NCBI GenBank assembly: GCA_015055905.1 | Contig: SVHI01000014.1 | Coordinates: forward strand, 1 to 34,193 | Source of the DNA: Clostridiales bacterium | Lineage (GTDB): Bacteria > Bacillota > Clostridia > Christensenellales > UBA1242 | Direction: 5' to 3' | DNA length: 34,193 bases | Shown: positions 8,456 to 12,802 of the stretch, in pieces | Numbering within the stretch: position 1 is the first letter of the stretch | How the letters are laid out: each line of letters starts with the position of its first letter | The notes under the pieces: model-generated | What the model saw: only the letters and a program-made list of their open reading frames with translations | Told to the model about the DNA's origin: nothing | The model's database searches: none | Translations under genes and position numbers: made by a program

Positions 8456-8486
8456 AAAGATAAGCAAATTGCTTATCTTTTTTTAT
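8456..8486. terminator. Rho-independent terminator between proS and xer-like gene
   Basis: agataagcaa/ttgcttatct stem plus T-run. Confidence 0.85.
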
Positions 8487-9535
8487 TCCGCTCTAAGCGA
8501 TACTGCATTTGATGCCTCACGACGTATTTTGTCAGACATAGCAGCATAGTGCTTCTTTGTAGTGTTAACATCACGATGTCCCAAAACATCGGCAACTATA
8601 TAAATGTCTTGTGTGGCTTGATAAAGCCTTGTGCCATAAGTTGAACGAAGTTTGTGAGGTGTGATATGTTTGAGTGGAGCAACGATTGTTGCATACTTTT
8701 TAACAAGTTTTTGAACCGCTCTTGTGGTTATACGCTTGTTTTGAAGTGAAACAAACAGAGCAGGCTCATTAACAAGTTGTGGGTTTTTGGCGCGCTCTTC
8801 AATCCAATAGAATAACGCAACTTTAACCTCATCACTGAAATACAAAATTACTTGGTTTCCACCTTTACGGGTAATTTTCATACCATTGATTTTAAAATCA
8901 ATATCTTCAACGTTTAAACCGACACATTCCGACACACGCAGACCAGTTCCAAGTAACAGCGTCATAATTGCAGTGTCACGAATTTTTGTATGCTTATGAA
9001 AGCCTTTTTCGTGGCCAGACAAGCCATAACCAGACTCAACAGTTCCCAAAAACTTATAAACTTCATCATCTTCAAACCTAATGATTGGCTTATCGTGAAG
9101 TTTTGGCATTTCAATTTTACTCGCAAGGTCAACTGAAATCATTTCTCGTCTAAAGTAATATTTAAAAAATGAACGAACAGCCGCAATTTTTCTGGCTTTT
9201 CCACGTTCGCCATTTGTCACAATCTCGCCGTCTTTTTTTTCATAAGATGTGAGATAACTCATATATCTTTCAAAGTGTGTTGAATGAAACTTTTCAAGGT
9301 CTTTAACTTCAAGTTCAAACATCGACTTTTTATCACGAAACAAGTTTGTTTCTGTTAACGCCCAGTTAAAAAATGTTCGCAGGTCATAAGCATAATTAAT
9401 TCTTGTGAGCGCGCTGGTCTTATTTTCAATTCCAGTAAAAAAATCTAACGCAAAATCAGGGAAGTCATAAAGAACTTCTCTTAGCCTTGCGGTCAGTTTT
9501 GTTCGCTGCTCATTGTAATAATCTTGCTTTTTCAT
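8483..9535 (-). CDS. Tyrosine recombinase, Xer family (single-chain, XerS-like architecture)
   Basis: 350 aa; catalytic set LGTGLRVSE (R), TRKGG (K), HKLRSTYGTRL (HxxR), LGHRDVNTTKKHY (H...Y); SAM-like N-terminal core-binding domain. Confidence 0.9.
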   Translation of the reverse strand: MKKQDYYNEQRTKLTARLREVLYDFPDFALDFFTGIENKTSALTRINYAYDLRTFFNWALTETNLFRDKKSMFELEVKDLEKFHSTHFERYMSYLTSYEKKDGEIVTNGERGKARKIAAVRSFFKYYFRREMISVDLASKIEMPKLHDKPIIRFEDDEVYKFLGTVESGYGLSGHEKGFHKHTKIRDTAIMTLLLGTGLRVSECVGLNVEDIDFKINGMKITRKGGNQVILYFSDEVKVALFYWIEERAKNPQLVNEPALFVSLQNKRITTRAVQKLVKKYATIVAPLKHITPHKLRSTYGTRLYQATQDIYIVADVLGHRDVNTTKKHYAAMSDKIRREASNAVSLRAE

Positions 9536-9541
9536 AATATA

Positions 9542-9570
9542 ATTATAAAATAGTAAATTTATTTTTGCAA
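9542..9570 (-). promoter_or_regulatory. Putative xer promoter: TTGCAA (9570-9565), N17, TATAAT (9547-9542), 6 nt to ATG
   Basis: Consensus -10, 17-bp spacer and start codon at the expected transcription start (leaderless). Confidence 0.6.
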
Positions 9571-9585
9571 ATATTTTGCGAATAG
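9563..9585 (+). repeat. Tandem 11-bp repeat ttttgcaaata-ttttgcgaata(g), overlapping the xer -35 box
   Basis: One mismatch between the two 11-mers; the second copy is the same sequence as one arm of the 11816-11845 palindrome. Confidence 0.75.
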
Positions 9586-9631
9586 TTTTATTACACTTGA
9601 CAAATTTTCTTTATAAATTTAAACTAAAACT

Positions 9632-10432
9632 ATGATTGCATTAAATGAACTAGTTAAAAATTATGACAACTTTGTTGATAGATATAAGTTAATGGGGAAG
9701 AAAGCCAAACTCGACTCTATTATTTTTCTTGAGAAAAAATTTACAAAATTGCAACTTGAAACAAACCAAGAACGTTCAAACTGCAATAAACTCTGCGGCA
9801 ATGTTGCTGAAAAACTTAGACGCGGTGAAAGCACCACGAGTTTAATTGATGAAATCAACTCGCTCGACAAAAAGATTAATTCGTCAACAGCAAAACTCAC
9901 TTCACTTTATAAAAAAATCAACAACAAACTCAAAAAACTCCCAAGTTATCCAAGAGAAGATAACGTTTTAAATATTCCAATAAAAACAACTCAAACAAAT
10001 CTTGGTGCAAAAGATTTTGTTAATGAAATCGCAAAAATTGCCGAAATTAGAGAGTTGGAAGAAACAACTCTAGACTTTCTCAAATCTCAAGAAAACTGCG
10101 TTTTTGAGGTAGAAAAACTGCCAACTATCATTGGTTTTAAAAACAAAATTTCAATTCTATCTTCAAAAGACGATGTGCTTAAAATTTATGACAAACTTAT
10201 TAATTTTTTAGAGCAAAACGCAAAACTTTTAATCAAAAAGTCAATCAAGCAAATGAAAAAAGAAAGCACAAGTGAATACAGAACTGTGCTGGCAGACAGG
10301 TCAGTGATTGACATTAGGCTAGTTGAAGAATATTATTCAAGAGAATACAGCCTAAAATATCACGACTCAAAAAAAGATATGTCTAGGTTTTTAAACCAAA
10401 TAGACATATTCATTTATTCAAAATCATTCTAA
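9632..10432 (+). CDS. Protein with seryl-tRNA synthetase N-terminal (tRNA-binding arm)-like coiled coil; no SerRS catalytic core seen
   Basis: Residues about 9-112 follow the SerRS arm pattern (L..R..LQ.E....RN..).. here LDSIIFLEKKFTKLQLETNQERSNCNKLCGNVAEKLRRGE...IDEINSLDKKINSSTAKLTSLYKKINNKLKKLPSYPREDNV; the remainder is not recognisable. Confidence 0.7.
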   Translation: MIALNELVKNYDNFVDRYKLMGKKAKLDSIIFLEKKFTKLQLETNQERSNCNKLCGNVAEKLRRGESTTSLIDEINSLDKKINSSTAKLTSLYKKINNKLKKLPSYPREDNVLNIPIKTTQTNLGAKDFVNEIAKIAEIRELEETTLDFLKSQENCVFEVEKLPTIIGFKNKISILSSKDDVLKIYDKLINFLEQNAKLLIKKSIKQMKKESTSEYRTVLADRSVIDIRLVEEYYSREYSLKYHDSKKDMSRFLNQIDIFIYSKSF

Positions 10433-11105: not shown

Positions 11106-11242
11106 AATCCACCTCTCTATATTATAACAATTTTATTATATCACATAAAAAAAATAATAAATAATAAAATTTTACACTTTTTCAAACTTTTTAAAAAATT
11201 TTTTGATTATTTAGGTGTTATTTCACACATAATTAGCAAATT

Positions 11243-11258
11243 AAAAAATCGGGTGAGT
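11243..11258 (+). repeat. Left arm of a 16-bp perfect inverted repeat (aaaaaatcgggtgagt)
   Basis: Reverse complement actcacccgatttttt at 11363-11378. Confidence 0.85.
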
Positions 11259-11314
11259 CATAATGACGATTTCTCACACAAAATTACAAAAACTTACCGC
11301 TAAATAATTTAAAG

Positions 11315-11337
11315 ATTCTGTCTCACAGCGTCTCACA
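11315..11337 (+). repeat. 23-bp direct repeat copy 1 (attctgtctcacagcgtctcaca)
   Basis: Identical to 11550-11572. Confidence 0.9.
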
Positions 11338-11362
11338 AAATCATTTCAAATTTTAAATGGAA

Positions 11363-11378
11363 ACTCACCCGATTTTTT
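11363..11378 (-). repeat. Right arm of the 16-bp perfect inverted repeat
   Basis: actcacccgatttttt, the complement of 11243-11258. Confidence 0.85.
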
Positions 11379-11549
11379 TTTCAATGATTTTTCTGGGGGA
11401 GTCACAAAAATTTCGCCCTAGTGTTATTCAGCAAATTAGAAACACTATTCAATCTCAAAATATCTCTTCAGCAAACACTATATGGAATTTTGGTTCACAC
11501 AGTTTATCGTGAAACAATTTGGTTGGATAATGGGTCAACAATTTTTTTC

Positions 11550-11572
11550 ATTCTGTCTCACAGCGTCTCACA
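11550..11572 (+). repeat. 23-bp direct repeat copy 2 (attctgtctcacagcgtctcaca)
   Basis: Identical to 11315-11337; further cacagcgt copies at 11571 and 11619. Confidence 0.9.
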
Positions 11573-11815
11573 CAGCGTCACGCAAAATAAATTCCCAGTA
11601 TCTCACATCACATAATACCACAGCGTGTCTCACAACACATAGCACCACAAACCATAAATAAAATCACACAAACGAAAATTAAAAATCAAGCCAAAGCGCG
11701 TCACAGCAAAACTACAAGCCAAATCAAAAACATTCAAATTCAAACTGGCTCACAAAACCAGATTCAAAAACCGACTGTTAATAACTGTCAACAACCCCAC
11801 TTCCACCCCTAGCAT

Positions 11816-11845
11816 CTATTCGCAAAAGCTGTGTTTTGCGAATAG
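11816..11845. promoter_or_regulatory. Candidate dif-like Xer recombination site: 12-bp perfect inverted repeat with 6-bp spacer
   Basis: ctattcgcaaaa gctgtg ttttgcgaatag; one arm is repeated upstream of the xer-like gene. Confidence 0.55.
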
Positions 11846-12298
11846 TTTGCACGAAGGTTTTTCACAATTCCCGAATTTATCAACATTCGCGGCTGTTAAT
11901 AATTTTGAATTTTTGACACTCCATTTTTCAAAAAAGACCTCTTTTTCTCTTCCACCCCACCGACAGTCTCTCTCTAGTGTTTAAAATTTTAGTCTCAAAT
12001 CGTGTTAAAATTTTTAAAAATTCAAAGTCAATTTTAATAAATCAAACACTAAAATTTAATCTAATTTTGATAATAAACTAGGCAAGTTTGATTAGGTGAG
12101 AAAATTAAATTCTATAAAAAACAGGTGAGAATTGATTTATTAAACACTTCAAATTTTTCTCAAAAATTTTTAAACTCACCCATTCACTCCCCTCAAAATT
12201 AGTTTTATACTAACCTACTAAATTTTTAAATTGACAAAATTTTAAATTGAACTATACTTATAAATTGTTAAAACTACCCTATCACTCAAGGAGCAAAA

Positions 12299-12802
12299 AT
12301 GATTAATATTGTTTTAGTTGAACCAGAGATTCCACAAAACTCTGGAAACATTGTTAGAACTTGTGCAGCCATTGGTGCAAAACTTTATATGGTTAAACCA
12401 CTTGGCTTTATTATGGACGACAAACATTTCAAACGTGCTGGAATGGACTACTTAGATTTCGCAAGCGTTTCAGTTGTTGATTCATTCCAAGAAATTTTGG
12501 ACGCAAACAAAAATGCCACCTTTTATTATGCTAGCACAAAATCTCAAAAAAATTACTGTGACGTGACATATCCAGATGGCTGTTTTATTGTTTTTGGAAA
12601 AGAAAGCTATGGGCTTAGCGAAAACATATTGAAAAACAACTATGACAAATGCGTTCGTATTCCAATGAGTTCGAAAGCAAGAAGCCTCAACCTTTCAAAC
12701 TCTGTTGCAATTATTGCCTATGAGGCAATGCGTCAACAAAATTTTGAATCTCTTCAAGAATATGGCCAACTCACTGGAAGAATTGAAAATGACAACTATT
12801 AA
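12299..12802 (+). CDS. trmL: tRNA (cytidine(34)-2'-O)-methyltransferase (SPOUT)
   Basis: NIVLVEPEIPQNSGNIVRTCAAIGAKLYMVKPLGF, FGKESYGLSE, RIPM...RSLNLSNSVAIIAYEA; SD aaggag. Confidence 0.95.
   Translation: MINIVLVEPEIPQNSGNIVRTCAAIGAKLYMVKPLGFIMDDKHFKRAGMDYLDFASVSVVDSFQEILDANKNATFYYASTKSQKNYCDVTYPDGCFIVFGKESYGLSENILKNNYDKCVRIPMSSKARSLNLSNSVAIIAYEAMRQQNFESLQEYGQLTGRIENDNY

Follow-up and report, generated by a model that had tools for sequence, protein, structure and literature searches.

The stretch of DNA analysed here (the window) comprises 34,193 nucleotides and carries on its minus strand, at 8483-9535, the gene xer, which encodes a 350-aa tyrosine recombinase of the XerS/XerH type (PF00589, E 7e-32). 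The best NCBIfam match of the protein is XerS (NF003462), at 187.5 bits and below the curated cut-off of 267. A structure model of modest quality (pLDDT 76, pTM 0.48), used for fold class only, matches XerH (5JJV/5JK0) at 18-19% identity, and the catalytic residues R200, K224, H294, R297, H320 and Y330 are invariant in ten relatives. PF00589 finds only one match in the 93% complete assembly, which indicates that this is the single Xer detected in the genome. Of 60 related genomes, 58 contain matches, and relatives occur in many named Clostridia loci, including those of Christensenellaceae and Lachnospiraceae.

Divergent from xer, on the plus strand at 9632-10432, lies a gene for a 266-aa coiled-coil protein that resembles the N-terminal domain of seryl-tRNA synthetase (PF02403, E 1.5e-10). 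This arrangement is kept in all eight genomes of the genus, where the coiled-coil protein shows 31-36% identity versus 78-83% for Xer and is fast-evolving. A predicted promoter, TTGACA-17-TAAACT (9597-9625), faces away from xer and would serve the coiled-coil gene; promoter scanning places its -35 box at 9597-9602 and its -10 box at 9620-9625, and the reverse complement of the -35 box, TGTCAA, is retained in eight of eight genus members.

The xer promoter reads TTGCAA (9570-9565), 17 bp, TATAAT (9547-9542) on the minus strand. It had been proposed in an earlier, sequence-only reading of the window and is recovered by our consensus scan, with the -35 box (9565-9570) and the -10 box (9542-9547) also supported by the genus alignment. 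Separated from the -35 box by a gap of 3 bp is the 15-mer TTTTGCGAATAGTTT at 9574-9588, which recurs at 11834-11848; both positions had been given previously and are exact on recheck. No third place is found with up to one mismatch in a scan of the whole 1.19 Mb assembly, and the double occurrence exceeds chance by far. The 11834-11848 copy forms the right arm of a dif-like palindrome, TCTATTCGCAAAA-GCTGTG-TTTTGCGAATAGT (11815-11846), which consists of near-perfect inverted repeats of 12-13 bp placed 6 bp apart, is situated 2.3 kb upstream of xer and has counterparts throughout the order. The copy at the xer promoter is a solitary dif half-site (ACTATTCGCAAAA, 9574-9586, minus strand), which we propose as a candidate Xer operator from its presence in eight of eight genus genomes, its near-uniqueness in each genome and its positional enrichment. 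An 11-bp tandem near-copy at 9563-9573 (TTTTGCAAATA; TATTTGCAAAA as a minus-strand feature) agrees with the half-site at 10 of 11 positions, as had been noticed before. The accompanying claim that the repeats cover the -35 box is correct for this near-copy, which overlaps the box, but not for the conserved copy at 9574-9588, which only abuts it.

Comparison within the genus separates these two copies. The solitary half-site TATTCGCAAAA precedes the xer -35 box by 3-4 bp in all eight genomes, and in the alignment of xer upstream regions the half-site block is on average about 96% identical, against 37-43% for its flanks. The few conserved blocks in the intergenic alignment are the divergent -35 box (TGTCAA), the block AACTATTCGCAAAAT around the half-site (9573-9587), and the -35 and -10 boxes of xer. 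Six members of the genus each contain a single copy of the 13-mer CTATTCGCAAAAT, located at the xer promoter; G005 has one extra exact copy (G005:C2:195658-195670) about 20 kb from xer, and G006 carries the one-base variant GTATTCGCAAAAT instead. In G007, an inverted copy lies 8 bp from the half-site and forms a palindrome with it. The sequence-only reading had staked its proposal on conservation of the half-site upstream of xer orthologues, and conservation is what we observe. The tandem pair, which bore much of the same argument, is by contrast specific to the window genome: in the other seven genus members the place of the 9563-9573 copy is occupied by TATTTGACA or similar sequences with 4-8 of 11 matches, because this is where their TTGAC -35 box lies (TTGACA or TTGACT in full). 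We therefore reject the pair as a functional unit.

A dif is recognised, within the DNA examined, in 97 of 130 non-redundant related genomes, and it lies upstream of xer in 96 of these 97. Its distance from xer is 30-370 bp in several families of the order and 1.9-4.6 kb in the genus of the window, where found. The dif pattern has one exact match in the window genome. Around it gene orientation shifts from plus to minus, with mostly plus-strand genes to the left of dif and mostly minus-strand genes to the right of 16 kb, as expected close to the replication terminus; GC skew, in a chromosome that is only partly assembled, is weakly supportive of this placement.

Half-sites related to dif are concentrated at xer promoters outside the genus as well. 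We searched the DNA within 8 kb, divided into 100-bp bins and with the dif itself masked, using the dif arm of the respective genome as query. An exact own-arm 11-mer falls within the final 100 bp ahead of the xer ATG in 22 of the 97 dif-bearing genomes, compared with 14 of 13,784 among all other bins. At a threshold of at least 10 of 11 matches, 34 of 97 xer promoters contain a half-site versus 2 of 647 other promoters, a null set that excludes the divergent gene's side of the xer intergenic region (Fisher p 1e-30, a value that overstates independence since the genomes are related). When a fixed set of arms is added to the own dif arms, a half-site is found within 100 bp of xer in 64 of 125 genomes, as a solitary copy in 50 and as an arm of dif in 14; in the other 61, no half-site is recognised in the 100 bp before xer.

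These half-sites fall mostly on the core promoter, either by the -35 box, in the spacer between the -35 and -10 boxes, or downstream of the -10 box, where promoters are consensus predictions of which several may be mis-assigned, such as that of G007, whose half-site is placed on the -10 box. Solitary half-sites beside the -35 box are separated from it by 0-4 bp in most genomes and by up to 22 bp or more in some. Others lie inside the 17-bp spacer (for example in G014, L127, L133, L135, L137, L142 and L149) or downstream of the -10 box (G020, L136 and L154), some overlap the -35 or -10 box, and both orientations occur. Where dif is located at the promoter, one of its arms often abuts the -35 box (G039, G046, G050, G056 and G058). 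On a FastTree tree of 125 Xer proteins, in which 42 of 122 inner branches are poorly supported, absence of the half-site requires at least 18 changes, and the class of minus-orientation spacer half-sites at least five, as judged from the starred branches. The first 49 genomes had suggested that the promoter half-site is a stand-in only where dif has moved away. We reject this reading because, after the addition of named loci, a solitary half-site coexists with a near dif (110-500 bp) in 10 of 30 genomes.

The promoter half-site also follows the dif of its own genome. Agreement between the two averages 10.4 of 11 positions, against 9.8 in shuffled pairings (permutation p 2e-4, kinship ignored), and several variants are matched in both places, namely ATGCGTAAAA in G008 and L160, TTTGCGTAAAA in G018, TTTTCGCAAAA in G051 and ATTTCGCAAAA in L147. 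Counter-examples to this coupling are L153, L164, L170 and L196, which agree at 9 of 11 positions.

These observations suggest, with a probability that we put at roughly 75%, that Xer represses its own gene through a dif half-site at its promoter. A free Xer monomer would bind one dif half-site on the xer core promoter and hinder RNA polymerase, such that rising free Xer would be followed by falling xer transcription, and recombination would proceed at the separate palindrome at 11815-11846 rather than at the promoter half-site. Passages of one study describe the binding of half-sites by single Xer proteins (PMC5357621), and binding to a single half-site may be weak. In the genus, the putative operator at 9574-9586 would abut the xer -35 box, with the -35 box of the divergent coiled-coil gene on its other side, and both genes may be under its control. 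The presence, conservation and position of the half-site, its coupling to the dif of its own genome and the lack of a partner half-site are direct observations, from which we infer both the binding of Xer to the promoter half-site and an effect that is repressive rather than activating. A half-site just upstream of the -35 box could serve activation too; its repeated and varied placement on the core promoter, in both orientations, fits occlusion by a repressor better than a fixed activator contact. The autorepression suggested in the sequence-only reading is in this respect well supported by comparison, as half-sites occupy several positions on the xer promoter or directly beside it.

If the half-site instead marked an activator site, Xer bound upstream of the -35 box would recruit RNA polymerase and create positive feedback. 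The centre of the site in the genus lies about 12 bp upstream of the centre of the -35 box, where class II activators bind, but other lineages carry the half-site in the spacer or downstream of the -10 box and in both orientations, and within the genus the promoters come close to the consensus (TTGACA/TATAAT), such that an activator would be unneeded; we consider this reading unlikely. A remnant of an older promoter-side dif, now non-functional, would agree with the several families in which a complete dif lies 30-370 bp upstream of xer, some with an arm by the -35 box. Such a remnant would be expected to decay, yet the site remains about 96% identical while its flanks are at about 40%; moreover, the half-site tracks the dif variant of its own genome, and L169, L171, L173 and L193 have it in addition to a dif that lies about 100-350 bp upstream of xer. 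We regard this origin as quite improbable.

The sequence-only reading had also raised the possibility of a second recombination site near xer, to which an accessory architectural site for dif recombination may be added, with the accessory motifs of TnpI/IRS as a likeness. Several genomes have the half-site about 60-130 bp from dif, and the inverted copy in G007 would fit a paired site. Among the 50 genomes with a solitary half-site, however, the top-scoring inverted partner within a distance of 4-12 bp reaches 5.8 of 11 matches compared with 5.5 in shuffles, and at the 6-bp spacing of dif 3.1 compared with 3.4. The half-site keeps its promoter location, whereas dif can be anywhere from about 0.1 to 4.6 kb away. 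With no inverted partner beyond chance, we reject the promoter half-site as a second recombination site, and hold the broader reading, accessory role included, to be very improbable. Unloading of SMC near the terminus, as at the XerD binding sites (XDS) of B. subtilis, is the least probable of these explanations. Xer-bound terminus sites do unload SMC in that organism, according to a statement cited in PMC10945525, but such a function would not need a promoter position, and within 8 kb solitary copies of the own half-site are almost confined to the xer promoter.

Autorepression by Xer would have several parallels among known systems. The XerS/difSL system of streptococci and lactococci, like the window, has one recombinase of about 350 aa and a dif linked to xer. 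It differs in that the window Xer scores 187 bits where the curated XerS score is 267, in that difSL spans 31 bp, with unequal arms on either side of an 11-bp centre (the centre as given in passages of PMC5357621) whereas the arms in the window are near-perfect and 6 bp apart, and in that difSL lies immediately by xer whereas the window dif is 2.3 kb away with a solitary half-site left in the promoter; in several other families, dif is adjacent to xer. The analogy with XerS/difSL drawn in the sequence-only reading is apt in one respect: the right arm of difSL in L200, the only genome of this set to carry that site, contains the likely -35 box of xerS (TTGAAA, 17 bp before TATACT), and difSL itself may thus act as an operator. 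It is less apt for the genus, where dif has moved 1.9-4.6 kb away and the half-site has stayed. Among the other XerS relatives over the cut-off, a simple scan yields candidate dif-like palindromes in L201 and no convincing one next to the gene in L202-L207.

XerH/difH of Helicobacter and Campylobacter also relies on a single recombinase and provides the fold match, at 18-19% identity only; a promoter half-site goes unmentioned in the passages found on this system. In H. pylori, an excess or a shortage of XerH appeared deleterious, and a segregation defect follows its loss as well as its overexpression (PMC3325230). The XDS of B. subtilis, as a citing paper describes them, resemble our proposal in that DNA-bound Xer has a role beyond dimer resolution, and differ in that this role is SMC unloading and that placement at a xer promoter is not known. 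More generally, autorepressed DNA-binding proteins and site-specific recombinases have an operator in their own core promoter. The proposed operator differs from these in being half of a recombination site of a housekeeping enzyme of chromosome dimer resolution. No report of Xer autoregulation, or of dif in Christensenellales, was found in the literature searched, which is not proof of novelty, and the passages found in reviews and papers on the linkage of dif to single xer genes and on half-site binding contain no mention of autoregulation.

Control of the level of the dimer resolution recombinase seems little studied, and a self-operator derived from half of dif, if real, would constitute a simple homeostatic circuit. 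We regard it as evenly balanced whether this extends to single-Xer systems across Clostridia, and perhaps to streptococcal XerS, with a recombinase that would also repress by reading its own dif arm and would thereby link the amount of recombinase to the occupancy of dif and possibly to a partner gene. The promoter half-site also offers a route to dif in draft genomes, and the survey reveals a recombinase of the single-Xer type together with its dif in many uncultured gut Clostridia.

We further observe that no ORF is listed for about 1.1 kb around the window dif (11150-12300), and that this stretch is strongly C-rich on the plus strand (GC skew -0.36 at 11-12 kb). This region contains repeats of TCTCACAGCGTCTCACA and a perfect 16-nt inverted repeat, AAAAAATCGGGTGAGT (11243-11258 and 11363-11378), and its repeats are possibly polar terminus motifs. 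In a separate case, dif-like palindromes recur on contigs C5-C8 of G037, with TTCCGCAAAATCAGGATTTTGCGGAT and TTTCGTGAAAG...CTTTCACGAAT as examples, and the 15 dif-pattern hits in this genome likely include the true dif.
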